Assembly: GCF_000189635.1 (NCBI RefSeq)
Contig: NW_002475972.1
Location: 26,993 to 90,992 of the forward strand
DNA: 64,000 bases
DNA from: Tetrahymena thermophila SB210
Taxonomy: Eukaryota > Ciliophora > Oligohymenophorea > Hymenostomatida > Tetrahymenidae
Reading direction: 5' to 3'
A model generated the notes under the pieces. That model did no database searches. It saw only the letters and a program-made list of their open reading frames with translations, and was not told where the DNA came from. This document shows, piece by piece, positions 6,901 to 63,596 of this stretch. The translations under genes and the position numbers were made by a program. Within the stretch, counting starts at the first letter, position 1. The number at the start of each line of letters is the position of its first letter.

Positions 6901-9900
6901 CAAACAGTATATAAATAATTTATTTTGTGCTTATTTGTATTAACTCAGTAAAGTATGGATGAATATTGTACTAATCTTGTTGTAATATTAAATAATCTAC
7001 TAACACTGCTTATTTAAACAAGTTAATAGAATAATTTGCTAAACTATAATAAACTTAATATTAATCGTTGAATACTATGTTTTATACGTTTTAGTATTAT
7101 GCTAAATTAGTTTCAGAAGAATAGAGAACTTCAGCCAAATCAAAAGAAATCAGTGCAGTTAAAGTCAGTACATTTAATAAATTAAATTAAGTGTTTAGAT
7201 ATATATTCTATATAGGAGTTTATTCTTATTATTGCAGGGAAAAACTTTCAATAAATTACATTTGAGGATATTAATACATGTGAATAAACTTATCTGAGTA
7301 TAAAAAAATGATTTTTTTATTCTCATCCATTATGATTCCTTTTGTTTGATATACATAAATTTAAAAAAGAGTCACTTCGTTTGTTAAACAATTGCATAAA
7401 TAAATTATTGGAGTATTATCAATAACAATTAAGCTTTTATATTTTTAAAAATAGTATGCTGAGTGATTATCAAATTAGCTAGTAGTTTTATATAAAAAAA
7501 AGGTACTATTAGTAAAAACTTTGATAATAAAGATCTGTTTTTTTGATCCTGTGAGGAGAATGTAAATGTCTTTATCTAAATCATAGATAGATTATGTCAA
7601 TTGATATTAACAAATATCCTTGTAGTTTATGAGTTAGTCATCATCTTTTTTAATTACATGTAATTAATTTTCCAAGGTATACAAAGCAAAAATTTTATTT
7701 ATCACATTTATTATTGGATTAGAACATAAATCCACACCGTAATAATTAGATAATAACTATTTAATAAATAATTAAGTTAAAAATTTAATATATTATATTT
7801 TAATAGGTATATTATATTTGCTTATTTTTAAATTCTATTAAGAAATTTGAAATTATTGAATTTATGAAAAAATATTTACTTAATTTGTTAACAGTTCTCC
7901 GCTTGTATAATCAAAGATTTAAAAACAAGGTTTGCTCAAAATTATTAATTTTTCATTACAATCTAAATCAAATATAACCTAACTCATATCTAAAAAAGAC
8001 AAACATTATAATGAATTCAAGTTTATTTAAATTTAGCTATTATCTAACATCTATGAATAAAATAAATAAAAGTTAATTAATAAATAGAGTTGTATAAAAA
8101 TCTTACGTTTATAGAGTAGATGATATTTTAACTGGTTTATGTAACTATAATATTTTGCTACTAACATACTCTATACTAAATTATCTTAGAATCTAAAGTA
8201 CATATTTGTTTATTTTGTGTATTTGAAAAAGTAGAAAATAAATACAGTGAATTATTTGTTACATAAATAAATTGTAGAGAAATCCAATCTAAAATGTAAA
8301 CGTTAATGTCTGACTCAAGCAAGAAATTCATACTGATAACTTTAAAAACATCTGTAGAATTGTAAATAGTAATTTAATTGGTGCTCTTATCATGAATTGC
8401 AATCCAGTTTTAACCATTATCAAATTATTATGCGAGAAATATCTGGCTCTAAGGATTTAAATTTAAAATACGGTAAGGATTATTAAACAAATTTGTATGC
8501 CAATAGAAGTCATTTTATGATTAGAAGAAGTGAATTTAAGAATCACCATATTTTTCTTACCCAATAAATATATTATCTTCTTATTATGTTTTAATTATTA
8601 TCATATTTTAACTATCTATGATATTTTCTGATTTCTTGTAGTATTGTGTATCATCTAAATGATAATAATTTATTATTTAATCAACTGGTTACATGCTTAT
8701 AGATGTACTTGTTGTTGTTAAATTAAATAATTGTTTTGTAAGGAGATCAAATTTATAAAAAAAGTCAAATTCACAAAAGTATATTTATTTATCATCAGAG
8801 AAAAAATTTGTTATGAAGAATCCAGATAGAATTTTACCAAGATATTATAGGTCAAATGTGTAAGCTGAAATATTATTAAATCCAATAACAAATATCTCTT
8901 TAGTTATTTATGAAGTCAAATAGAAGCTTTAGTAAAATTTACCTACTAGATTAGCTAACTAGTATTCAAGTGTTCTCTTGCTTATTGAAAATGGCTAAAA
9001 TAAATAATCATATGTCTGTAAATAAATAAGATCTCCGTCAAAAATTGCTGGCAGTTTTTTATCGTTATCAATAAACATAAAATCTATAAAATTTTAAGAA
9101 GGAGAAAAGCTAAAAATCTAATTTAAACTAGCTGAAACTAAATCAAACTAATAAAGTGATTAATCCTAATAGCTGAGAATCACTAAAAAACTATCATTTA
9201 CTACAATAAAATTGCCCTATATGTTGGTCAAATTAGCAAATATTCTTTAGTTAGCTAAATCTACTAATAAGAGTATATCTTAAATTATCAAAATTTTTTT
9301 GGATTAGATGTAACATGCATTAGACCTGAAAGAAAAGCTACTTATATTATAATTTAAAATAACCTTTTTATTTGAAATATCAGTAATATACTCTTATAAA
9401 GCTCCAGCAGACGAAAATGATGTTATTAAATACTAATTATCGAATACACGATTAATTATTTATTGATTGCCTTATACTTAAAGAGATTATTAAATTGTTG
9501 TTAAAATTCTTGGATTTTTTTAGAGATAATTTAGTTAATAGATTATATTTTATTTACTTATAAGAATCTACTAAAGGAAATAATTATCATTTATAGTGTA
9601 AAATTAGGGTTTTTAAGTTGATTAATTTACATTCAAAATTAATTAATTCATAGACATAATCTTATATGAAAACTATACTTAGCTCATTATTTGTTTGTAA
9701 AACTAAATATTTTAGCTTAAAGATTAATATGGATTAAGAAATTCAAATACCAAATCATTTTTAATTAAATTGTATTTAATTCGTATGCAATTATTGTAAA
9801 GTCCAAAGTTTTAAGCATATTTAATGTATTTGCTTATTATAATCTATATTTCATCTTACTATAGCATAAATCCAATTACTTAGTATTGTAAGAATTTCTT

Positions 9901-46586: not shown

Positions 46587-49500
46587 TCAATAATTTAAAG
46601 GTTTCTATTAATCTAACTTGCTTTCAAATTCTAAAGTATTTAACATTATATTTTAATTTTCTTGATTTTAAACATCATTTTAAAGTGTTATGAAATCTAT
46701 GTTGGTAACTGTTTATTCTTTTTATAAAAATAAATAAATAATTTGAAAAAAAGAAAATAAATTTTTTTACATTAGAGATTATTGTAGGTTCTCCTCATTT
46801 ATTGAGATTAGTCGCTTATTTAGTTAAAATAATTTAAATTGTAGTTATTCTCTTCTTATTTAATGCTGGAAGTCAAAAAATTCAAATTAAGTTTTCTCAC
46901 CTTTTCTAGCTATTTTCTCTCTGAAGGGATAGGCATAAATTAGCTTTCTAGATTAAACTACACCAGCAATTGCTCTTCGTTATAAAAATTGTAATTTTTT
47001 AAGAATTTCAGAAGAAGTCTAAATTTTCTTTAAACTTCTTTTAACTTAATCAAAGATCTTATTTTTTAGTTGCTAATTATTTAAACATTAGTGAATTTAT
47101 TAGGGAATTTTAATTTTAATTTAAAGAGTAAATTCTTAACTAAATTATTATCAGTTTTATTTGCTTTTACTTATATATTTACCATTCCAAATATCAATTG
47201 TAAGAAGAGATATATGTTTGGTAGTATGATAATTAAAATAGTTATCACTTAAAAAACTATTTGTCGGATTTAGCCAGACGAAATCTGCTAAATATAAAAC
47301 AAATTCAAAGATAATATGCAAAGCAAATTAGAAAAATGCTGTAAATCATTGTAATTTTATTAAATATAGGGTTTTGCTTTTCCAACTAAAAAGATATTAA
47401 GTGACATTATGATGTTCATTATCAAAACCTTTATTCAAAAATAGATTAAGTTTTTTAAAAATGAAATGAATTTTTACTTAAATTAATTGATTTTTTTCTT
47501 TGAGTAAAATAAAAATTATGATTAAGGTTGCTTTGTAGATGATCTTATAGAATTCCCAATAGTACATTGTATCTCTAAATCCTGCAAATATGTATGAATA
47601 TTACACTTTAATAAAAAAAGACTTCTTTCCCTTTCTTACAAGATACACTTTAACAAACAAAATAGCAGGTATGATAATTCCATAGATGATCAATAGAGGT
47701 AAGCAAAATATAAAAATATATGGTAAATGATGTTTTGGATCATAACATTTGATATTATAGTCCAAATCCATATACTTTTAATCTCCCATCTAAACGCAGT
47801 TCATAGACTTACTTAAAATAGTAATAACTGAAACAAAATAGTAAAAGTAAATAAAAATTAAAGCAGCTCTGGCATGCCTTATGAATAAATTTTATTTGAA
47901 CTTTAAAAAAATATAACCTATTAAAAAATAGAGGGTTATTATTAAAATAGGCTGCAATAAAGACCAAAGCAATTAATAGAACCACAAAGGTTGTAAACTA
48001 GGGCTCTTTGCATATAAGCAGTCTATAGATTTACTGATAGCTCCTAATGGATTACCTGATATTTATACAGGTACTGAAATAGCCATAAAATTGCTAAATA
48101 AGCTACAAATCAAAGAAAGAATTTGCAAATGATCATTTAGAATCTTAGAAAATATTTTTTGTCTTTCAGATTTATCTAAAATATAATTTTAAATTAATTT
48201 AAATTTATTTTTAAAAATTCTTGATTACATGTGTTGCTTAAAAAAAGAATTCCTGAATTTTTAACATAATGACCTAAAAGTTTAACATACAACTATTTTA
48301 GCAAGCTTCTGACCATAAAAAAAATATAAGCCATTACTACAAAAAACTTTAGTAAATTATTTAAAATAATTAGCATAATATTATCTGAGCATTTATAGCA
48401 TTATTTTTATGTGATTTATTCTGCATACGAATCTTCCCAAATTTAACCATAAATATCACAAGATCTACATATCATGCCTATATATCCTCTAGCACAATTG
48501 AACTTTTTATTTTAAAATTAAATTAGAATAAAATAATTATTTAAAAGTATTTATCTCATTTATTTAATTTGAAATAATTAGAAATTCGATAATTTATCAA
48601 GGATACTCTTCTTGCGCATAGTGCGCCACATCACATAAAAAGCACATATTTAAATGATATTTTTTGTGTTATTTATCTACATTGCCCGAATTTATTACCC
48701 TACAAAATAAAAATACAACAAATGTAAATTTAAATTCTAGGAATATTTTAATTATATTGAATTTAAGTTAATTCTATCTCTTATTTTTAAGTTTAATTAT
48801 CAATTTAAAAAGTGTTTAAATTTTTGCAAAAGTTAGCATTAATATGAAATAATAACCCATAATTTTAAAATATATCAATTCTTAATTCAAATTTTACTTT
48901 GTTTATTTTCTTTATTAGATTAATTATTTGTCTTTCTTTAAAAATTATTTAAAATGCTAAGTTATTAGTTTCTTGATGAAGATGTACTTAAAAGGTTACA
49001 ATATTCATCAGGATATTCTAAGTTAGTTTAAATGGTAAAATGAATTTTTTTCTACATAAATTTTCAACACATTTTTGTATTATAAAAAATTAAATAGATT
49101 GATAAATGGGTATTGTAATATTTTTTTTAATTACTGATTTTTCTTTTTATTTTTGAAAATAAGAAAAGTTTTATTATCAAAAAATAAATATTTTATTCTA
49201 AAAATGCTAATATGAAACAAAAGAGGTATGTTTTATTCTATAAAATCATTTAAAAAGTCTTTTTTTATTTTGCTTTTTCTTTTTAAAATAAATAACCATT
49301 ATAGCTTTGGTACGCGCACACTTTTTAATATCATATTCAGAAAAAGATACCACAAATTATTTCAAATTTAAACAAAATTAATAATCTTACTTTTGATTTA
49401 TTACTTTAAGGTTAACAAACATCAGGATTGTAATTACAATAAATAATATCATCAGTAAATTCATTACTTCTCCAATAACCATTTTTCAACTATATTTTTG

Positions 49501-52500
49501 AACCTGAGCAATAATCAGCAGAGTCTGGACATTTTTTGCATTCACCATCAAGAATATCTAATGAATATTTTCCCTCTGGACAAGACTCACAAATAATAGA
49601 ATTACTAAATTATTTTTGAATCTGCCCTATTTTACATTGATCAAAATTAAGTAGCACTTAAAGATCTAACTAACCTTAATTAATTTAGATATTATTATTT
49701 GAATCAACTAATTGTGGAAACACATTTGATCTTATTTTCATAATCATTGTACTTAATGGCTTATACATAGGCTATACTGTTAAATAAAACCCTCCATTTT
49801 AATAATCACTTGATTTTAAATTTCCTACACATTATATTTATTACACATTTAATTAATCACATGTAATTTCTATATTGATCTATCTAATTATTAGTAAGAC
49901 ATCATCACTTAAGCTACTTTGGTTTTGAATTGATGGGATAAAAACAGGAGTTCCTTCTTCATCAAGAACTTGTATTTTTTTAAAAATAATTTACTCACCA
50001 CTTTAAATTCCTTCTACCTCAAGTTAATTTTATTTGTAATTTATATTATGTAAGCTTTTAATAGAAATATCTTTCTAAGAAATATAAATTTTCCTTAAAG
50101 TTGATCCTAAATTTTTACCATAGATGCTAGCATAATTATTTTAAATGGTATTATTTTGCTTGATACCTTTCTATATTAATAAAACAAAGTCAGGGACTAT
50201 TTATTGATAATAAATTCCACCTCCTATTTGAGCTTTATTTGATTCTATTTGTGAGTTCTTTAATATTAAATTAACTTTGGATAGATTAATAGCTCCTCCA
50301 GTAGATAGCACGGCTTAATTTACAACAAAAGCAGAAAAATTAATATCCAAAGTACCTAAATATTATGTATTTATAAAATTTATTGCACCTCCATTTTTTT
50401 AAAGACATTTATTAGAAATAAAACTTGAGTAATATATATGAACTTTTTAAGTCTCTATTAGTTATAAAGCACCTCCATATCCATTTGAGTTTATATTATC
50501 TTTAAATATACATTTAGCTAATGTAATATTGTAGCATTAATTAACTTGTATAAATGATGAGAATGTGTTTTAATTTAATTTGTTAAGCTTAAGAGTTATA
50601 TAATCTAATGTTACTTAATCTAAGTTATTTAGTAAAATTAGTGAAGCTTCCAAATTAATTTTATTATTAATATATGATGATTTAAGTAACTTTGCCTCCC
50701 GTTAGTATAGCAGCTAGTTATTTTAAAGCTATTATTCATTAACTGATAAGAATGATATAAAGTTATCAAAAAATTAACTATTTTAAATAGTAAAGCTTGT
50801 AATGTTAATAAAATTTATAGCAAATTGATGTTTTTTATTATTTGATAAAGGTTATATATTATCCATCGACATTTTGTTTATTTATAATACTTGAGCAGTC
50901 ATATCTATGATATTAAAATCTGTAAACACCTAACTTACAGTAAAATTTTTAACTTAAATTGAATCAACTTGTAAAAATATTTAAGTTTAGTTAGAATTAA
51001 TAATAATTACATCTTTTATCAATAAACTCTAACAAATAAATTAAACTAGATTAATTTCTAAGTTTTACAAGCTAATCAAGCTAACAGAGTTACTATTTTT
51101 AACTTCTATTTATTATAAACTGGTATGAGATGAAAATAATGCATTAAAAATTGTAGAAAAATGTAATTTAGCCATTTAAATATTTGTGATGTTAGAATTT
51201 TAGATTAATTAGACATTGAAAAGCTAAATATTCTATGATTAAGTAATATTGAGATCAGACACTTCCAGATTGTAAGAATTGTTTAAGTAAAATATTTGCA
51301 AGTTCGAAGAACTAATCACATTAATATTATTGATAGTTATATTTGTATTATTAGTGGCACTAAAAATGCTTTGTAGATTTTGGTTTAATTTCAATTATTT
51401 AATATTTATGTTAGAAAAATAAACATTCTTAATTTAAACTATTGTGTTATTAATCATATTGAATAAAGTATTTGAGATTATGCTTAAGTCAGTTATATTA
51501 AGTTTTTCTATAACAAGTAATTAACAATTTTAAATAATTAATTGTCCAAAGCTTAAGTTTTCTTGTGCAACTATATTTATATTAGTAAGATAAACTTTTT
51601 CAAAATTTTACAAAATCAGTGAATTTTATATGTTTAAAGTTATATCTGACATTTAAAATATTTTCATGAAATTATTTTAATTTAGATTTATTAAACCCAA
51701 GCTCAATGACATTTATTTTATCTAAAAATTTATAATTTATTTTGCATAAGGAATGTTTTCTTACCAACAAATATTACTATTTTAAGAAGTTGAATAATTA
51801 ATCAAAGATAATTATTAACTTACTTAAATTTTGTTAAATAATTATTGAGATAATGATCTAATACATTATTGATCAAGATAAGCTATTTCAATTACTTGAA
51901 GAGTTGTATCAATATGAAAATTTTATAAATTTGAGAGAGTTTATTAAAGCGTTTCTTAAGTACGAATATTCTCTTCAGTTCGATTCTATTGCTCTATACT
52001 AAGATTACATTTATTGTTAGGAGATAATGGTATTACTATTCTTTCTATATCAGACTAAGAAGACAAGATAATTAATAAACTAAATTACCCTTCTTAACTT
52101 TTTATTAGTTACAAAACTTAGACTTGATAATATTTCTTATTTTTTTAAAATAGGACTTAATAATCAGAGTTATATTACAATTATATTAAGTAAATTTTTT
52201 CTTTTTAGATTATTATAAAGTAATTATTAAAATTGATACTTATCATATTTATTGCTTCTTCTATTCCATAATTTATTACAGGAAATTATTCTTAAAAGCT
52301 CAAACCATTATAGATTATTATATCTGTTGGACAAACAGAATATATGAAATTAGAGTCAAAAGTTATTATTGATTGCTTTAAGCATGGATTGAGCATAGAA
52401 TTTATAAATTTCAAGTTCCAATCATAAATATTTGTTATACCTTTATTTAAGACAGCATATATTATTTTTCTAAAAGGATCATTCACAATGTTTGCAATTG

Positions 52501-55500
52501 TAGTTTTTTGAAGTAATAATTGTTAAAATAAATTTGTATTAACATTTAAAATTTAGATAATTGTGTTTTAAGAATCTAATGAAACAATACACACTAAAGA
52601 AGTACTTTAGTTAGGCTCAATATAATCATTAGTATTAAATCTGTCTTCGTATTCAAAAGGGATTTTCCACCAACTATTTTGATAATTCTTAATATCTTTG
52701 GATTAAAGCTTAAACATGAATTAAAATACACTAGTATTTTAAAGATTAATATTATTTATTTTTTTAGTTAAAATATTGAAGGTATAAATTATATTTATAG
52801 AAGGAAGGACTATAAAATCACCAATTATTAAGGCTTAAGAGAAGTCACTCTATGGAAGATTAGAAAAATTAATTTCACTAATTTGCTCAGCTTAAAGGTT
52901 TAATTAGTTTAATTGCAAATTTTGTTAGTATAAAATGAAAATTTGCTACCTTTGTTAATCATAAAAATAGTTGTCTGGACTTTAAGACAATTATATCTTT
53001 TAAATTAATTACAATTTTTCTTTTAATAAATCTACTTCGATTAAGAAAAGGTTATCAAACAATATATAAATAATTTATTTTGTGCTTATTTGTATTAACT
53101 CAGTAAAATAGGGATGAATATTGTACTAATCTTGCAATAACATTAAATAATCAACTAAAACAGCTTATTTAAACAAGTTAATACAATAATTTGCTAAACT
53201 ATAATAAACTTAATATTAGTCGTTGAGTACTATGTTTTATATATTTTGGTATTAAGCTAAATTAACTTCAGAAGAATAGAGAACTTCTGTCAAATCAAAA
53301 GAGATTAGTGTAGTTTAAGTCAATACGTTTAATAAATTAAACTAAGCATTTAAGTATATATTTTGAATAGGAGTTTCTTCTTATTATTGCAAGGAAAAAC
53401 TCTCTACAAATTTCATTTAAGGATACTAATATATGTGAATAAACTTATCTGAATATAAAAAAATGATGTTTTTTATCTCGTCCATTATGATTCCCTTTGT
53501 TTGATATACTTGAATTTTAAAAAGAGTCATATTTTTTGTTTTACAATCACATAAATAAATTATTGGAGTATTATCAATAACAATTAAACTTTTTTATTTT
53601 TAAAAATAGTATGCTAAGTTATTTTCAAAATGGTTAGTAGTTTTATATAAAAAGAATGTGCTATTAGTAAAAACATTGATAATAAAGATCTATTTTTTTG
53701 ATCCAGTGAGGAGAATATAGATATCTTTTTCTAGATCATAGTGTGATTACGTTAATTCATACTAACAAATATCCTTGTAATTTATTAGTTAATCTTAATT
53801 TTTTTTGATGATATGGATTTAATTTTCTAAGGTATAAACAGCAAACAGTTAATTATCCACTTTTATTATTGGATTAGAACATAAATTCACACCATAATAT
53901 TGAGGCAAAGACTATTTAATAAATAATTAAGTCATAAATTTAACAAGTATAATGAAATAAATTTTAACTATATTTTAATGATAATATTACATTAAGTTTA
54001 TTTTTAAATGCTATTATGAAATTAAAAATATTTGAATTTATGAAAAAATACTTACTTAATATTCATATGGTTATCCACTTGTATAATCAAAGACATAGAA
54101 ACAAGGTTTGCTCAAAATTATTTTTTTTTCATTACAATCTAAATCAAATAATATCTCACTCAAATCTAAGTAAGGCAGACATTATAATTAACTCAAATTT
54201 ATTTAAATTTAACTAAAATCTAACATCTATTTATAAAATAAATAAATAAAATATTAAGAATTAAATTTGATTAACAATTTTACGTTTATAGAGTAGATGG
54301 TATTTTAGCTGGTTAATGTAACTATAATATTTTGCTACTAGCATACTCTATACTTCAATATCTTAGAATCTAAAATGCATATTTGCTTATCTTGAGTATT
54401 TGAAAAAGCAGAAAAAAAATACAGCGAATTATTTTTTACATAAATAAATTATAGAGAAATCCAATTTAAAACATAAACACTTATGTCTGACCAAAGCTAG
54501 AAATTCAAATTGATAACTTTAAAAACATCTGTTGAATTGTAAATAGTAATTTAATTAGAGCTCTTATCATAAATTGCAATCCAGTTTTAATCATTATCAA
54601 ATTATTATGCAAGAAATATCTAACTCTAAGGAATTAAATATAAAATATGATAAGGACTATTAAATAAATTTTTATGCCAATAGAATTCATTTTATGATTA
54701 GAAGAAGTGAATTTAAGAATCATCATATTAAGTTTACCCTATATATATGTTATCAACTTGTTATGTTTTAATTATTATCATATTTTAACTATCTATGACA
54801 TTTTCTGATTTCTTGTAGTATCGCGTATCATCTAAACGATAATAATTAATTTTTTAATCAATTGGTTAATTTTTTATAGATGTACTTGTAGTTGTTAAAT
54901 TTAATAATTGTTTTGTAAGTAGATCAAATTTATAAAAAATGTCAAATTCACAAAAGTATATTGATTTATCATCATAGAAAAAATCTGTTATGAAGAATCC
55001 AGATTAAACTCTATCAAAATTTTATAGGTCAAATGAATAAGCTAAAATATCATTAAATCCAATAGCAAATATCTCTTTAGTTATTTATGAAGTCAAAAAA
55101 AAGTTTGTATAAAATATACCTAAATTAACTAACTAGTATTTAAGTGTTCTACTGCTTATTGAAAATGGTTAAAATAAATTGCCAGCTGATTTCAAATAAA
55201 TAAGATCTCCATCAAAAATTACAGGTAATTTTTTATCTCTATCAATAAACATAAAATTTTCAAAATTTTAAGAAGGAGAAAAGCTAAAAATCTAAGTTAA
55301 ACTAGCTGTTACTAAATCAAGCTAGTAAAGTGACTAATCCTGAAGGTTGAGAATCACTAAAAAATTATCTTGTACAACGATAAAACTGCCCTATATGTTA
55401 GTCAAATTAGCAAATATTCTTTGATTTGCTAAGTCTACTAATAAGAATATTTCTAATATTATCAATATTTATTTGGATTAAATGTAACATACATTAGACC

Positions 55501-57644
55501 TACCATAATAGCTCTATATATTATAATTTATTATAAGCTTTTTATTAACAATATCAGTGATATATTCTTATATAACTTGGAAGTCAGTTGAAAATGATGT
55601 TATTAAATACTAATTATCAATTACACGATTAATTTCCTGTTGTATGCCTTACACTAAAAAAGATTATTAAATCGTTGTCAAAATTCTTGGATTTTTTTAG
55701 AGGTTATTCAGTTAGTAAATTATATTTTACTTGCTTATAAGAACCTACTAAAGGGAATAATTATCATTTATAGTATAAAATTAAGGTTTTTAAGTTGCTT
55801 TATTTACATTCAAAATTAGTTAATTTATAGATAGAGTCTTGAATCGATACTATACTTAGCTCATTACTTGATTATAAAGTATAATACTTTAGCTTAAAGA
55901 TTAATATGGATTAAGAAATTCGAATAAGAAATCATTTTTGATTAAATTGTATTTAACTCGTACACAATCATTATAAATTCCAAAGTTAAAAGCGTATTGT
56001 ATTGATATTCTTAATAAAATCTATATTTCATCTTACTATACCATAAAACCAATTACTTCATATTTTGGGTATTTCTTGTTTATTTATTTAAAATTTACAC
56101 TAATTTCTGTTTATGTATTTTAGTATTAATTGAAAATGTCAGTCAAATTTGCAAATAAATAAGAATTCTAGTTTTCAAGTAAAATAAATTGGCTATTTAA
56201 AATATGATTAATACTATCAGTAATAAATAAAAAATAATCCTGAGAGATTACCTAATTTATCAAAACTCCATCGTAAGTGTCATTAAATTTTATAAAGAGT
56301 AGATTTTGGCTAATTTAATCACATTACACTATCAAGTTAAGTGATTAATATGAAAGTAAAAAACTAGGAAAATAGTCAATTTGTAAAATGAGGATCTAAT
56401 CTATGAGTTCTCCATCTTACTGAAATGTTAATTTGTAGAAAAAATTTTAATTACCATGAATTTTTGATGATATAATATAATTATCTTTTTGCAGCAATAT
56501 ATTTTCAGGAATATCACTGAAAGATTTTTTTGACTATCTAAGTGAAATAGAAAAGTCCTATTGAAGTGTTCCTACCTAATATAAATTAAATATATTCATT
56601 AAATTGAGTTTATTTATAAGTTAATTTAATAATTACAAATAGTTAATTAACTAGCTTAGACTGAAAATAATATCTGCTTAATATTTTTAATTGAATTATT
56701 TCTCTGATTTATAGTTAAATTGTATTAATTTTTTTATTTTATATGTCATACCATTTTAAATCTGATTCTTAAAAATTAGTCATGAAAACGAGCTAAAAAA
56801 CATCATCTACATAACTAATATTATATTCTTATCCCAAATTTTATTCATCGAATTCTATTTGTAGAGTCTCAAAATTCATAACATTAAACCTTTATCCCTG
56901 GAGAATTCCACCATAAATTCCTGAAAAAAAAGTGGATATATAGGTCTCATCTTATCTATCAAAGAATGAATATGCGTTTATCTCTTGTAAAGTTTATATA
57001 GTTATAATATTCCAGTTTTAATCCACAACAGCGAAACTGCAAGAACTTCCACTTATAACTATGTATTAATTCTCTTTAAATATTGCAATACCATTCACAA
57101 ATGTATTCATAACAAAGCTAGATAATTACTGAATTTGTGGGCATTCCTGAGTATATTCACAAATCTAGCTACTATAATTCTAATAATAAGATTATTGACA
57201 GTTATTCGTGCATTTTCTACTTTCGAAAGGTGGATTAAGAAATTATAAATCAGATTCGCAAACACCTTTTTTAGCATTGCACTGATTGTTATATTTATCA
57301 AGCACTAAATTCTGATCACAGGCCAGACAAATTTATTAAGAGGTGCACTAGACGCATCCGTTGACCTTGCATTTGATGCATCTTTTGCCTTCGCTATCAA
57401 TAACTTCATATTTTTGACATTAATTTTAACAAGTAGAAATATCATCATAACTCATGTAAGAGTTTTTTACACAGCCAATACATGCTTTTTGGCTTATATT
57501 AAAGCAATTTTAGCAATCTGATGAGCAGCTAAGACATGCTTGTGATAGAGCGTCAAATATTTAAGATATTTAACACGTTTGAGCTAAACAATATTATAAA
57601 AATATTAAATTCACTATAATTTTTTTTCCTATATGTGATCTCAT
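46587..57644 (-). CDS. P5: fifth (promoter-proximal end of array) giant membrane protein, 3250 aa, 8 exons
   Basis: Introns: 56576-56636, 54227-54283, 53912-54055, 48503-49390, 48176-48228, 47429-47477, 46718-46770. Exon lengths 1008, 2292, 171, 4521, 274, 698, 658 and 131 total 9753 nt, in frame to TGA. The N-terminus is MRSHIGKKIIVNLIFLQYCL, then AQTC. The codon that is an internal ATG in P1-P3 is GTG here, which fixes the start at the upstream ATG for the family. Exon 3 (57 codons) was read completely and is open; sampled parts of exon 1 are too. Intron 4 is 888 bp, the longest in the array. It is the first copy in transcription order and faces the LRR gene across a 544-bp divergent spacer. 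The Cys modules, GGAI beta-helix, CESCPEG-type module and membrane domain are as in P1. Confidence 0.85.
48503..49390 (-). other. Intron 4 of P5 (888 bp, longest version)
   Basis: Canonical GTAAGATT and AAAAAG ends. It shares two G+C-richer islands with P3: TTGCGCATAGTGCGCCAC at about 48612-48629 and GGTACGCGCACA at 49309-49320, plus the AAAAGTCT-context segment at about 49195-49265. An additional stretch of roughly 350 bp (about 48650-49010) has no counterpart in the other copies. No gene is supported inside it. Confidence 0.8.
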
Positions 57645-58188
57645 AATTTATATCCCTTAGTTAATCTAATTTGATAAGTAAATTCAAAAATTATAAGCAA
57701 TTTATTATTATTACTTAGTAAGTAGTGTATATATTAATACAAATCAAAATTATCTTTGCGTTCATCTCTTAATATAAAAAATAAATTTGAAATTACAATA
57801 AAAAAGTATAAAAATTCTACTATTTTAAAGCTAAATTACAGTCTTATGACATTTCAACAAAATAAAATATGAATACTTTATTTCAAATTAATAAATTTTT
57901 TTTTACTTTAAATAAACATATTTTATAGTTTGCTATAAAAAAAATGAAGAAAAAAATATAAAGCTTAGCTTAAGTAATTTAGAAATTTCTAAGAAAAATA
58001 AATTTTCAAAAATATATTTTAATATTAAATAATTAATTTTAAATTAATTTTTTGTGATATCTCCTTATAAAAGCAAATTTATAAATTTACATTTGATAAT
58101 CAATTATTAAATTTTGTTTTTTCTTTTTATCCATTTATAATTAATTAAATTCCATAAATTTCTATTCAATATTTTTGAAAAAAAATAA
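57645..58188. promoter_or_regulatory. Divergent intergenic region between P5 and the LRR gene
   Basis: 544 bp separate the two start codons, which point away from each other, so both promoters must lie here or overlap. The P5 side carries the conserved element at about 57940-58020; no motif could be assigned to the LRR side. Otherwise it is A/T runs only. Confidence 0.6.
57940..58020 (-). promoter_or_regulatory. Conserved upstream element of P5
   Basis: AGAAATTTCT at 57981-57990 lies 337 bp before the P5 start. It is preceded by ATGAAGAAAAAAATATAAAG (compare P3) and followed by AAGAAAAATA. The downstream AAATATTTCATT tract of P1-P3 is only weakly kept. Confidence 0.45.
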
Positions 58189-61100
58189 ATGATATAATAG
58201 ATTAAATCTTACGAAGAATTAGAAGAAGTAATTATTTATTTTTTTATTAATATCCTATAAATTTATTTTAATTAATAAAAAAAGTTTTTAAACTCATCAC
58301 TTTAATCTCATAAGGTTCTCCATATTTATCTATAGTATATTTAATTTTAAAATATTATTAAAATTTTTTTTATATTTAACTTTCAATTTATTTAAAATAT
58401 TAATTTTTCTAATAGAAATTCTTTTCATTATTCTTTCACTGATTTGTATTTATACAAAAAATTTTAATCATTTATTCTTCATTTTTTATAATTTGATATT
58501 TTTTGTTCATTTTTTGCTAATTACACTACACTTAATAAAAACAGTTTATTTATTTTTGATTGTAATATTTTTAATAAAAAAAAATTAATTTAAAACATTA
58601 AAGCTCTTTTAATTTATTTGATTTATTTTTCTTTTTCTTTTCATTGTGCTTGCTTGATTATTTTTGTTTCTTTTTTTTTATTATTTATAAATTAATCTTA
58701 TTTTTTCATATTATTTCTTCATTTTTTCCTTCTCATTAACTAATTAATTAAATATTTTTTCTCCAATATTTAAAAAGGAACAATTAAATTGGTGATGAAG
58801 GTGTATTAGGCTTAGGTTCTGCTTTGGCAAAGTGCACTAATCTCTCAAATCTGACACTTGACCTTAGGTAAAAACAGTTTATTTTTATTGGATTGCGATA
58901 TTTTTAATTATATAAACTAATTTAAAACAATAAGGCTCTTTTTTCTTTTTCTTTTTATTGTGCTTGCTTGCTTTTTTTCTTCCTTCTTTCTTAATTTAAC
59001 TCGTTGTTTTATTTTTAACTTTAACATTTATTAATTAATTATTCTTATTATTTCAAATTATTTCTTCATTTTTTCCTTCTCATTAACTAATTAATAAAAT
59101 ATTTTTTCTTCAATATTTAAAAAGGAACAATTAAATTGGTGATGAAGGTGCATCAGGCTTAGGTTTTGCTTTAGCAAAGTGCATTAATCTCTCAAATTTG
59201 TCACTTTTCCTTAAGTAAAAACAGTTTATTTATTTTGGATTGTTATATTTTTAATTATAAAAACTAATTTAAAACAATCAGGCTCTTTTTTCTTTTTATT
59301 GTTCTTACTTGCTTTTTTTTTTGTTCTTTCTTTGTTAATTTAACTCATCATTTAATTTTAAACTTTTACATTTATTATTAATTAATTAATCTTATTATTT
59401 CATATTTTTTCTTCATTTTTCCTTCTCATTAACCAGTTAATAATATATTTTTTCTTCAATATTTAAAAAGTGGTAATTAAATTGGTAATGAAAGTGCATC
59501 AGGTTTAGGTTCTGCTTTAGCAAAGTGCAATAATCTCATAAATTTGACTCTTGACTTTTAGTAAAAATAGTTTATTTATATTGGTTTGTTATATTTTTAA
59601 TTATAAAAATTAATTAAAAACAATAAGGCACTTTTTTCTTTTTATTCTGCTTGCTTTTTTTTTTGTTCTTTCTTTCTTAATTTAACTCATCATTTTATTT
59701 TCAACTTTTTCTTTTATTATTAATTAAATTTTATTATTTCATATTTTTTCTTCATTTTTTCCTTCTCATTAACTAATTAATTATATATTTTTTCTTCAAT
59801 ATTTAAAAGTGGTAATTAAATTGGTGATGAAGGTGCATCAGGCTTATGTTCTGCTTTAGTATAGTGCACTAATCTCTCAAATTTGAAACTTTTCTTAAGG
59901 TAAAAAAAGTTTATTTAAATTGGATTGTGATATTTTTAATAATAAAAATTAATTTAAAATAATAAGGCTCTTCTTTTTTTTTCTTTTTATTGTGCTTGCT
60001 TGCTTTTTTTTCTTCCTTCTTTCTTAATTAAACTCATCATTTTATTTTCAACTTTTACATTTATTATTAATTAATTAATCTTATTATTTCTTCATTTTTT
60101 CCTTCTCATTAGCTAATTAATTATATATTTTTTCTTCAATATTTAAAAAGTAATAATTAAATTGGTGCAATGGGTGCATCAGGCTTAGGTTCTGCTTTAG
60201 CAAAGTGCATTAATCTCTCAAATTTGACACTTTGCCTTAGGTAAAAACAGTTTATTTATATTGGATTGTGATATTTTTAATTATAAATACTAATTTAAAA
60301 CAATCAGACTCTATTTTCTTTTTCTTTTTATTGTTCTTGCTTGCTTTTTTTCTTCCTACTTTCTTAATTTAACTCATCATTTTATTTTGAACTTTAAGAT
60401 TTATTATTAATTAATTAATCTTATTATTTCATATTTTTTCTTCATTTTTTCCTTCTCATTAAATAATTAATTATATAATTTTTCTTCAATATTTTAAAAG
60501 TGGTAATTAAATTGGTGATGAAGGTATATCAGGCTTAGGTTGTGCTTTAGAAAATTGCATAAATCTCTCAAATTTGACACTTTTCCTTAGGTAAAAACAG
60601 TTTATTTATTTTGGATTGTGATATTTTTTTTTAAAAAACTAATTTAAAACAATAAGGCTCTTTTTTTACTTTTTCTTTTTCTTTTTATTGAGCTTGCTTT
60701 ACTTTTTGTTCTTTCTTTGTAAATTTAACGCATTTATTATTAATTAATTAATCTTATTATTTCATATTTTTTCTTCATTTTTTCCTTCTCATTAACTAAT
60801 TAATTATATATTTTTTCTTCAATATTTAAAAAGTGGTAATTAAATTGGTGCAATGGGTGCATCAGGCATAGGTTCTGCTTTAGCAAATTGCAATAATCTC
60901 TCAAATTTGACACTTGACCTTAGGTAAAAACAGTTTATTTTATTGGATTGTGATATTTTTAATTATAAAAATTAATTTAAAATAATAAGGCTCATCTTTT
61001 TTTTTCTTTTTATTGTGCTTGCTTGCTTTTTTTTCTACTTTCTTAATTTAACTCATCATTTTATTTTCAACTTTAACATGTATTATTAATTAATTAACCT

Positions 61101-63596
61101 TATTATTACTTCATTTTTTCCTTCTCATTAACTAAATTAATTATTTATTTTTTATTCAATATTTAAAAAGTGGCAATTAAATTGGTGCAATTGGCGCATC
61201 AGGCTTATGTTCTGCTTTAGAAAAGTGCATTAATATCTCAAACTTGAAACTTTACCTTCAGTAAAAACAGTTTATTTATTTTTGATTGTGATATTTTTAA
61301 TTAAAAAAACAAACTTAAAACATTAAAGTTTTTTTTTATTTTTCTTGCTTGGTTGCTTATTTTCTTCCTTTTTTTTTAACTTAACTCATCATTTTATTTT
61401 CAACTTTAAAATTTATTATGAGTTGATTAATTTTATTATTTCATATTATTTCTTCATTTTTTCGTTCTCATTAATTAATTAATTATATATTTTTTCTTAA
61501 ATATTTAAAAAGGAAAAACTAAATTGGTGATGAAGGTGCATCAGGCTTAGGTTATGCTTTAGCAAAGTGCATTAATCTCTCAAATTTGACACTTTACCTT
61601 AGGTAAAAACAGTTTATTTATATTGGATTGTGATATTTTTAATAATAAATACTAATTTAAAACAATCAGGCTCTTTTTTCTTTTTATTGTTCTTACTTGC
61701 TTTTTTTCTTCTCCTTTCTTAATTTAACTCATCATTTTAATTTTAACTTTTAAATTTATTTTTCATTAGTTAATTAAGCTTATTTTTTCTTCATTTTTTC
61801 ATTTTCATTTATTAATTAATGATATATTTTTTCTTCAATATTTAAAAAGGAACGACTAAATTGGTGATGAAGGTGCATCAGGCTTAGTCTCTGCTTTAGT
61901 AAAATGCACTAATCTCTCAAATTTGACACTTGGCCTTGAGTAAAAACTGTTTATTTAAATTGAATTGTGATATTTTTAATTATAAAAACTAATTTAAAAC
62001 AATAAGGCTCTTTTTACTTTTTATTGTTCTTGCTTGTTTTTTTTCTTCCTTTTTTCTTAATTTAACACATCATTTTATTTTCAACTTTTATATTTATTAT
62101 TCATTTGTTAATTAATCTTATTTTTTCATATTTTTTCTTCATTTTTTCCTTCTCATTAACTAATTAATTATATATTTTTTCTTCAATATTTAAAAAGTGG
62201 TAATTAAATTGGTGATGAAGGTGTATCATGCTTAGGTTCTGGTTTAGCAAAGTGCATTTATCTCTCAAATTTGACACTTGACCTTAGGTAAAAACAGTTT
62301 ATTTATATTTGATTGTGATATTTATAATTATAAAAATTAATTTAAAACAATAAGGCTCTTTTTTCTTTTTCTTTTTATTTTACTTGCTTACTTTTTTTTC
62401 TTCTTTCTTTCTTAATTTAACTTACCATTTAATTTTCAAATTTTACTTTTATTATTAATTAATTAATCTTATTATTTCATATTATTTCTTCATTTTTTCC
62501 TTCTCATTAACTAATTAATTATATATTTTTTCTTCAATATTTAAAAAGTGGCAATCAAATTGGTGCAATGGGTATATCAGTCTTAGGTTCTGCTTTAGCA
62601 AAGTGCATTAATCTCTCAAATTTGACACTTTACCTTAGGTAAAAACAGTTTATTAATATTGGATTGTGATATTTTTAATTATAAAAATTAATTTAAAACA
62701 ATAAGGCTCTTTTTTCTTTTTATTGTTCTTGCTTGCTTTTTTCTTCCTTCTTTCTTAATTTAACTCATCATTTTATTTTCAACTTTAACATTTATTATTA
62801 ATTAATTAATCTTATTATTTCATATTTTTTCTTCATTTTTTCCTTCTCAATAACTAATTGATTATTTATTTTTTCTTCAATATTTAAAAAGGTAAGACTA
62901 AATTAGTGATGAAGGTGCATCAGGCTTAGGTTCTACTTTAGCAAAGTGCATTAATCTCTCAAATTTGACACTTGACCTTAGGTAAAAACAGTTTATTTAT
63001 ATTAGATTGTGATATTTTTAATTATAAAATTTAATTTAAAACAATAAGTCTCTTTTTCTTTTTATTGTACTTGCTTACTATTTTTTCTTCTGTCTTTCTT
63101 AATTTAACTTACCGTTTCATTTTCAAATTTTACTTTTATTATTAATTAATCTTATAAATTCATATTTTTTCTTCGTATTTTCCTTATAATTAACTAATTA
63201 ATTATAATTTTTTTCTTCAAAATTTAAAAAGTGACAATTAAATTGGTTATGAAGGTGCATCAGACTTATGTTTTTGCCTAGCAAATTGCATTAATCTCTC
63301 AAATTTGACACTTTATTATGAGTAAAAACAGTTTATTATTATTTTGGATTATGATATTTTCAAATATAAAAATATATATATATTACAAAAAAGTTCTTTG
63401 TTAGCTTTTATTTTATTTGTTTTTTTCTCTTTTTTATTCCACTAACTTTATTTTATCATTTAATTTTACTTAATATTTTTAAAAATTTACACAAATTTAT
63501 TATTATAGTTCTTTCTCAAACTATGAATCATATGTAAAAAGCAAGTATCTTAAATTAAAAAGATTAGTTATCTTTGAAATAAGATTTTACGAATGA
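58189..63596 (+). CDS. Leucine-rich-repeat protein, 478 aa, 17 exons with one LRR per 90-nt exon
   Basis: Exons: 58189-58227, 58285-58334, fourteen exons of exactly 90 nt starting at 58778, 59125, 59471, 59810, 60151, 60501, 60834, 61171, 61513, 61850, 62198, 62549, 62892 and 63232, then 63509-63596 with TGA. They total 1437 nt, in frame. The first two exons give MIQQIKSYEELEE and FLNSSLQSHKVLHIYL, which sit in LRR register with the repeats. Each repeat is about NQIGDEGASGLGSALAKC followed by -NLSNLTLDL, a ribonuclease-inhibitor-type LRR; some units have GAMGAS for GDEGAS. The last exon encodes a basic cap, SKYLKLKRLVIFEIRFYE. There is no signal peptide or membrane segment, so it is probably a cytoplasmic binding protein. 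All introns between and flanking the repeats are phase 2. The 5' exons are inferred from frame and motif register and are less certain than the rest. Confidence 0.82.
58335..58777 (+). other. Long intron 2 of the LRR gene containing a decayed repeat unit
   Basis: Donor TA|GTATAT, acceptor TTTAAAAAG, phase 2. From about 58525 the sequence matches the start of the cassette introns (AAAAACAGTTTATTT, then GATTGTAATATTTTTAAT), but the donor is AT instead of GT. The position where a 90-nt exon should be has no readable LRR. This is best explained as a lost repeat exon whose flanking introns fused. Confidence 0.65.
58778..63508 (+). repeat. Fourteen tandem exon-intron cassettes, period 333-351 bp
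   Basis: Each cassette is a 90-nt LRR exon plus an intron of 243-261 bp (187 bp after the last exon). All the introns start GTAAAAA, then resemble each other throughout: GATTGTGATATTTTTAAT, AATAAGGCTC, long CTTTTT tracts, AACTCATCATTTTATTTTCAA, CCTTCTCATTAACTAATTAA (branch-point-like CTAAT) and TTCTTCAATATTTAAAAAG. Unit starts are spaced 347, 346, 339, 341, 350, 333, 337, 342, 337, 348, 351, 343 and 340 bp. The last intron (63322-63508) shares only the donor end and has its own TATTATAG acceptor. Confidence 0.95.

Follow-up and report, generated by a model that had tools for sequence, protein, structure and literature searches.

Likely binding residues are more variable than introns in a Tetrahymena leucine-rich repeat gene family built from 90-nt exons

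We analyzed a 64,000-nt stretch of the genome of the ciliate Tetrahymena thermophila SB210 (assembly GCF_000189635.1, contig NW_002475972.1, positions 26,993 to 90,992 of the forward strand), hereafter called the window, which contains at 58189-63596 a leucine-rich repeat (LRR) gene with 14 tandem repeat exons of exactly 90 nt separated by near-copy introns. The most informative feature of this locus is that its introns are more conserved than its exons. A first reading, made from the sequence only, held the introns to be about as alike as the exons, but this was not borne out when their divergence was compared: the mean p-distance is 0.105 for the 13 introns and 0.175 for the 14 exons (10.5% vs. 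17.5%), the introns being the more alike. Across the paralogs of this gene, the residues likely to bind a ligand appear, at the level of codons, to be far more variable than both the introns and the rest of the exon. This is what is new here; the architecture of the gene has already been published, and its structure is not new. The explanation that we favor, and that we consider probable, is that these genes are arrays of recombining exon cassettes encoding an LRR solenoid of the ribonuclease inhibitor (RI) type, in which the ligand-facing residues are under diversifying selection.

All diversity measurements were made in one genome (101 Mb, 445 contigs). The main set consisted of 21 loci, i.e., the window gene and 20 paralogous stretches, which together gave 277 profile hits. 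Most of these hits (265) are exactly 90 nt long with both splice sites, and none of the 265 has a TGA in its full codons. The 12 excluded hits comprise four weak ones in L009 (scores 15-26), five without an acceptor in place (one each in L014r, L018r, and L021, and two in L025r), and three spliceable exons of other length, of 87 nt (L015r), 81 nt (L019r), and 93 nt (L020r), all of which differ from 90 nt by multiples of 3. The 222 of the 265 units scoring at least 85 were defined as young, while within-locus comparisons were made in the 20 loci having at least four aligned units.

Diversity at codon positions 1 and 2 is far from evenly distributed along the exon. In the 222 young units, it is highest at codons 30 (0.65), 1 (0.62), 7 (0.48), and 28 (0.45), followed by codons 15, 6, 3, and 26 (0.30-0.21), and reaches 0.02-0.09 in the six leucine codons. 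The top four codons are unchanged when all 265 units are used and, in the 43 low-scoring units, codons 30 and 1 still lead, with codon 28 in ninth place. The excess is centered on codons 28, 30, and 1, at the end of a β-strand, and on codons 6-7 in the following loop. The first three of these codons (eight nucleotides) are referred to as the core below. Codons 6-7 occur in 38 forms in the 222 units; of the six bases, five distinguish the two commonest forms, GATGAA (DE, 91 units) and GCAATG (AM, 31 units).

When comparisons are restricted to units of the same locus, mean diversity in the 20 loci is 0.478 for the core, 0.052 for fourfold degenerate sites, and 0.059 for introns (approximately 0.07 and 0.09 for fourfold sites and introns, respectively, when all pairs are pooled). 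The core is more diverse in 20 of 20 loci, with a core/fourfold ratio of 9.2 (95% interval 6.9-13.4, bootstrap over loci) and a core/intron ratio of 8.1 (6.0-11.3). This uncorrected intron baseline was replaced by G/C-matched columns because diversity in intron G and C columns is, respectively, about fourfold and 2.6-fold that of A/T columns. Against G/C intron columns (0.135), the core is still 3.6-fold more diverse (2.7-4.9), again in 20 of 20 loci. Moreover, three or four common bases are found at all eight core sites versus 5 of 40 G/C intron columns. The five units of L009 offer an extreme example, in which introns differ by 0.3% and fourfold sites not at all, while the core differs by 55%. 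These values agree with those of a hold-out set of four regions added after the site classes had been fixed. The hold-out regions gave 48 hits, 42 of which have both splice sites and a length of exactly 90 nt (a further spliceable exon is 81 nt long), and the 39 units scoring at least 85 show a diversity of 0.597 in the core, 0.086 at fourfold sites, and 0.092 in introns. Codons 6-7 reach 0.322 in this set, a value that is lowered by the choice of two of the four regions for their dense matches to a motif spanning these codons.

Where these codons fall in the protein was assessed by combining domain searches and modeling. The window protein (queried as its 14 repeats plus terminal exon) matches Pfam LRR_6 with an E value of 6e-33, and the best sequence matches of its spliced repeats in the PDB are 9y6s, a Leishmania LRR protein, and 5irl/5irm, the latter being rabbit NOD2. 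The fold was predicted with AlphaFold2, without an alignment, on the intronless paralog L035, which has 30-residue repeats, and the window gene was mapped onto it by motif. The L035 model is a regular strand-helix solenoid (predicted local distance difference test score of 73.8, predicted template modeling score of 0.74). Its best Foldseek match is ribonuclease inhibitor, with an E value of 4.5e-12 and a template modeling (TM) score of 0.51, and its best structural neighbors, 3tsr, NLRP14 (9ln6), and 1a4y, have an RI/NLR-type fold with moderate TM scores of 0.48-0.65 by query length. The β-strand/helix solenoid and LxLxxN strand-turn motif of an RI-type fold are thus found, by Pfam for the window protein and by modeling and Foldseek for L035. 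The repeat of ribonuclease inhibitor itself has 28-29 residues, versus 30 in the window family. L035 occupies an intronless frame at L035:645-1982 with a similar C-terminal ending, KAKRLIKYTLVYK, and is possibly an older relative of the cassette genes.

In 8 of the 12 repeats of the L035 model, the strand spans the equivalents of positions 24-30 (it is shorter in three and longer in one), with a leucine or similar residue at positions 25, 27, and 29. Residues 28 and 30 would therefore alternate with positions that are generally buried in LRR folds, and residue 1 would follow the strand, which suggests that all three are exposed. The phase-2 intron sits between position 30, two bases of which lie upstream, and position 1. 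Consequently, the exposed patch of each strand would be built from two exons. The earlier proposal that each exon encodes one LRR thus holds for length but not for register, which is shifted, since an exon runs from just after one β-strand to the end of the next.

Several observations weigh against diversifying selection as the whole explanation. The hypervariable codons were first chosen on the main data themselves, the structural mapping relies on a paralog with exposure inferred rather than computed, and intron base composition makes the uncorrected eightfold core/intron figure an overestimate. Against G/C columns, the excess is small in L016 (0.104 vs. 0.062) and L013 (0.612 vs. 0.465). 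Values of at least 0.45 also occur outside the named patch, at exon nucleotides 8, 45, and 55 (codons 3, 15, and 18) and in 4 of 231 intron columns. Codon 28 is diverse even at its synonymous third base (0.366). In pooled tests between codons and sites, several of 28 pairs exceed a z of 3, the largest being codons 1 with 18 (z of 7.5). In the 24 independent closest pairs with introns at most 2% apart, fourfold exon sites are more different than introns (13/336 vs. 46/6114, with 71/192 in the core), so that, overall, exons seem to be older than introns or to have been exchanged more. This fourfold excess and the diverse third base of codon 28 are not predicted by site selection alone; old exon alleles moved by very short conversions might account for them. 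In addition, the whole-exon ratio of nonsynonymous to synonymous divergence in the window is just 1.07 (Nei-Gojobori), an average near 1 that conceals two opposite classes of codons. Finally, the values below 1 obtained in the published analysis of this family are interpreted there as purifying selection (Xiong et al. 2019, PLoS Biol, PMC6564038). The values themselves are not in conflict with our reading because most codons are under constraint.

Could the same pattern arise without selection for binding? Neutral concerted evolution would consist of unequal crossing over with no selected binding role, the exon variation reflecting relaxed constraint, and it would accommodate array lengths that vary, the five of 277 hits lacking an acceptor in place, and introns that are locus-specific (fixation index over loci of 0.35 for introns and 0.16 for exons). 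However, relaxed constraint caps diversity at the neutral level, and the core exceeds the most mutable intron columns in every one of the 20 loci, on average 3.6-fold. The leucines, moreover, are fixed, and a length of exactly 90 nt with both splice sites is preserved in 265 of 277 hits, none of these with a TGA in its full codons, which makes this alternative unlikely in our estimation. A second alternative is a local mutation hotspot, or targeted diversification by templated microconversion or hypermutation, at the codons around exon ends. It fits with squared correlations between common two-state sites that drop to the permuted level beyond 6 nt, with the diverse synonymous base of codon 28, and with the six closest pairs having identical introns, whose exons show between 0 and 10 differences (10 for both L009_9/L009_11 and L026r_8/L026r_10). 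Yet the neighbors of the variable codons are quiet: codon 29, which is flanked by the hypervariable codons 28 and 30 and is a leucine in 204 of 222 units, reaches just 0.044 at fourfold sites, codon 2 shows approximately 0.04, and the exon-adjoining intron bases are not raised (0.05 within loci for the first ten columns, splice site included). Codons 6-7 also sit 16 nt inside the exon. Any hotspot would need single-codon precision or added selection, and we regard this alternative as quite improbable.

Two further alternatives concern the locus rather than its codons. All 14 window exons are symmetric with near-identical splice sites, so the locus might mainly be a generator of isoforms by exon skipping, and the frame neutrality announced by the sequence-only reading is indeed confirmed, with a TGA at the junction in just 48 of the 49,284 possible joins (0.1%) among 222 exons. 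Duplication of a single phase-2 exon would produce the same symmetry just as well. The main text of PMC6564038 contains neither "alternative splic" nor "exon skipping," and a search for Tetrahymena LRR exon skipping yielded, at the level of literature listings, just a Paramecium transcriptome paper. While exon-skipping isoforms from the window locus are possible, a locus serving mainly to make them is very unlikely. An assembly artifact or a pseudogene, in turn, we consider hardly credible. Although several contigs start or stop inside such arrays, which shows that the arrays disturb assembly and could affect the exact repeat number, the array in the window is interior to its contig (C419, 193,871 nt), every pair among the 13 window exons that were compared shows at least six differences, the start, cap, and terminal exons can be aligned to their paralogous counterparts, and the 1437-nt frame is intact.

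Unequal crossing over that changes array length, as first proposed from the sequence, is supported indirectly. The paralogous stretches hold runs of approximately 4 to 20 repeat units within the regions sampled, and units with near-identical introns mostly belong to the same array (45 of the 51 closest pairs with introns at most 4% apart). Inter-locus exchange is suggested by the leader that precedes the repeats, which in the window gene is 14-22% different from 12 paralog leaders, while the window repeat introns show a mean difference of 12.8% from those of other loci. Leaders more divergent than repeat introns are as expected if exchange of cassettes between loci postdates the split of the genes, although the rates of the two may differ. 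The case for entirely independent genealogies of exons and introns was weakened. Of 179 units, 95 have their nearest exon, and 139 their nearest intron, within their own locus. This gap in locality is largely a matter of length because 90-column intron pieces score 0.66, versus 0.54 for exons. The 15 hypervariable nucleotides keep a locus signal of 0.41, versus 0.19 for 15 intron columns.

Recent spliced, i.e., intronless, copies of young arrays were also considered and rejected. The search for them (E value of at most 1e-15, 150 of 6,904 candidates scored) gave six places, five of which are more distant (45-49% identity); the stretches covering these five, L035-L037, hold long uninterrupted LRR frames. 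The sixth (75% identity) is an apparent 165-nt fused exon in the otherwise intron-bearing locus L034. At L034:959-1123, two cassettes are apparently fused in frame, with the intron gone and the repeat spacing shortened, and this looks like an apparent crossover inside coding sequence.

Under the explanation we favor, repeat number and content would change in the germline via unequal crossing over and gene conversion, with exchange running between equal phase-2 exon/intron cassettes both within and across loci. Selection would hold the buried framework constant while favoring change at the exposed residues at the strand end and in the following loop, and the array would offer ligands a binding surface made of modules. 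With the exposed patch cut by the intron, recombination within the long, well-matched introns would re-pair binding residues, generating new pairs of half-patches with the frame untouched. Should diversifying selection indeed act on the exposed residues, the proteins would serve in recognition and face a target that changes. Every gene has a built-in yardstick in its introns, making the question testable in an ordinary laboratory ciliate. The codon signal thereby bears on a question left open by the 2019 work, the purpose of thousands of such genes. As to the ligand, bacteria, digestion products, or self are guesses. A bolder proposal, which we put forward tentatively and consider rather doubtful, is that the thousands of 90-nt LRR exons form the germline recognition repertoire of a single-celled predator. 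It would have hypervariable contacts, a homogenized framework and introns, and an intron placed in the contact patch so as to re-pair its halves; in the extreme form, very short-tract templated exchange would feed those codons.

The window gene is a member of a described family. Passages of PMC6564038 report Tetrahymena LRR genes with 90-bp exons (1 to 51 per gene in T. thermophila), the young ones forming "group III," and propose that they originated by unequal crossing over, possibly together with retrotransposition. Literature searches on genes of this type led to that paper alone. Group III genes have at least three consecutive 90-bp exons, which is the case for 14 of 14 in the window gene, and phase-2 introns on both sides, as in the predicted splicing here. 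The introns of the window array are 243-261 nt long, and the commonest length in our sample is 258 nt (26 of 196 introns), compared with a peak of approximately 257 nt given for T. thermophila in the same passages. The six leucine codons that the S15 legend of that paper centers at exon positions 36, 48, 66, 75, 81, and 87 correspond to codons 12, 16, 22, 25, 27, and 29, which are leucine in 204-220 of 222 units. The ciliate code, in which TAA and TAG encode glutamine, is in use, with TAA at codon 3 in 154 of 222 units and a window frame that ends at TGA. A 31-nt exon motif, allowing up to three mismatches, has 2,075 matches in the genome and none with a reversed-pattern control. In sum, both have tandem exons of exactly 90 nt, long introns that are near-copies in phase 2, and very many paralogs; no architectural difference was found from what those passages describe, and the same mechanism of unequal crossing over is proposed.

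What differs is the reading of selection. PMC6564038, in the passages concerned, takes its Ka/Ks (the ratio of nonsynonymous to synonymous substitution rates) as purifying, and codon-level hypervariability measured against introns is the addition made here. Its main text lacks "positive selection," "diversifying," "hypervariab," and "concave," although this does not cover its logo figures, which may show variable positions. Nor was codon-level hypervariability in these genes found in the literature, at the level of titles and abstract openings, with subscription journals and the 2019 logo figures outside that view. Passages of the same paper suggest roles that include recognition of bacteria or of digestion products.

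Plant LRR immune receptors offer a close parallel for variation of this kind. According to passages of PMC3138743, the concave face is highly divergent among EFR paralogs, while the orthologs of EFR and FLS2 show few positively selected residues, for EFR none on the concave face. For RPP8, exchange between paralogs together with balancing selection is argued in passages of PMC6771003. Plant receptors and the window family both vary on the face that usually binds ligand, and the excess diversity on exposed xxLxLxx residues makes the latter work like a plant NLR, a likeness and not membership. Positive selection at the xxLxLxx residues is known from other plant genes, and literature listings also suggest it. 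By contrast, no nucleotide-binding domain of plant NLR type was found, Pfam giving LRR families only for the 14 repeats and terminal exon (the preceding 30 residues being outside the query); the same query showed neither an NB-ARC nor a kinase domain. Furthermore, we know of no plant LRR immune receptor gene with one exon per repeat and near-copy introns. The variable lymphocyte receptors of lampreys are also made of LRR modules with variable concave residues; these are assembled somatically, whereas change in the window family would occur in the germline.

The window gene itself, judging from its predicted splicing, is a complete and intact protein-coding gene with start and terminal exons of its own, in a window with a G+C content of approximately 21-22%. 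Its joined coding sequence of 1437 nt is open from ATG to TGA and encodes 478 residues in the ciliate code. The 14 repeat exons, each lying between AG and GT, span 58778-63321 on the forward strand, like all features of the gene: 58778-58867, 59125-59214, 59471-59560, 59810-59899, 60151-60240, 60501-60590, 60834-60923, 61171-61260, 61513-61602, 61850-61939, 62198-62287, 62549-62638, 62892-62981, and 63232-63321 for exons 1 to 14. As first noted, all 14 measure 90 nt and have phase 2 at either end; they are also free of in-frame TGA, and their splice sites are near-identical. The codons split 2+1 across the 13 phase-2 introns carry a continuous open frame through the whole series. Tandem Repeats Finder returns the array with a period of 337, 13.7 copies, 84% matches, and a score of 6230. 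The range initially delimited, 58778-63508, does contain the array, but the gene reaches beyond it on both sides.

Upstream, the array is preceded by a leader/promoter region (58004-58188) common to paralogous LRR genes, as seen in a blastn search with 1,500 nt of upstream sequence and an alignment of 13 leaders, that of the window included. Its 5' limit is near 58004, with 71-82% identity over several hundred nucleotides in the longest of the matches listed. In the same alignment, the ATG and donor of the 39-nt start exon (58189-58227, MIQQIKSYEELEE, followed by GT in phase 0, and open in the full model) are aligned in all 13 leaders, with a 3-nt deletion in one. The leader alignment and the full model also define a 50-nt half-repeat cap exon (58285-58334), which encodes FLNSSLQSHKVLHIYL plus 2 nt and ends in phase 2. 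The first phase-2 intron (58335-58777, 443 nt) appears from blastn against the window repeat units to be chimeric, with a leader intron fused to a repeat intron at the exon/intron border. Approximately 201 nt of leader intron are followed by a repeat-type intron from its second base on, intron positions 202-443 matching repeat-unit positions from 92 on. This would fit with cassettes having recombined into a leader gene. A decayed exon inside this intron was rejected, both because the part ahead of the intron copy scores no better than shuffles when aligned to the exon consensus (-5.0 vs. -3.9 ± 2.8) and because the intron copy begins at the second intron base. At the other end, the terminal exon (63509-63596), defined by acceptor, frame, and alignment, completes the junction codon with a single base and continues with SFSNYESYVKSKYLKLKRLVIFEIRFYE up to TGA. 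Sixteen other array runs have tails that align with it, and a similar K(S/L)K(R/S)LV motif closes their readings.

As for the surroundings of these arrays, contigs C5, C154, C299, C142, C414, C427, and C301 (the last from base 106) start or stop inside or near them, so that the numbers of units assembled for those arrays may fall short. At each end of C419, inspection of the outermost 180 bases by eye revealed no telomere-like repeat. Most of the remaining window (823-58045) is a tandem series of approximately five units of 11.3-11.9 kb, in blocks 83-90% identical, each carrying the motif TTTTAACTATCTATGA (at 8606, 19904, 31591, 42892, and 54783). The last of these units has a minus-strand open frame of 2480 residues at 49337-56779 and a cysteine-rich piece at 56514-57683. 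Its similarity to the others stops at 58015-58045, and the LRR leader begins at 58004; from these alignments, 58004-58045 would be a sharp border between two duplicated gene families.

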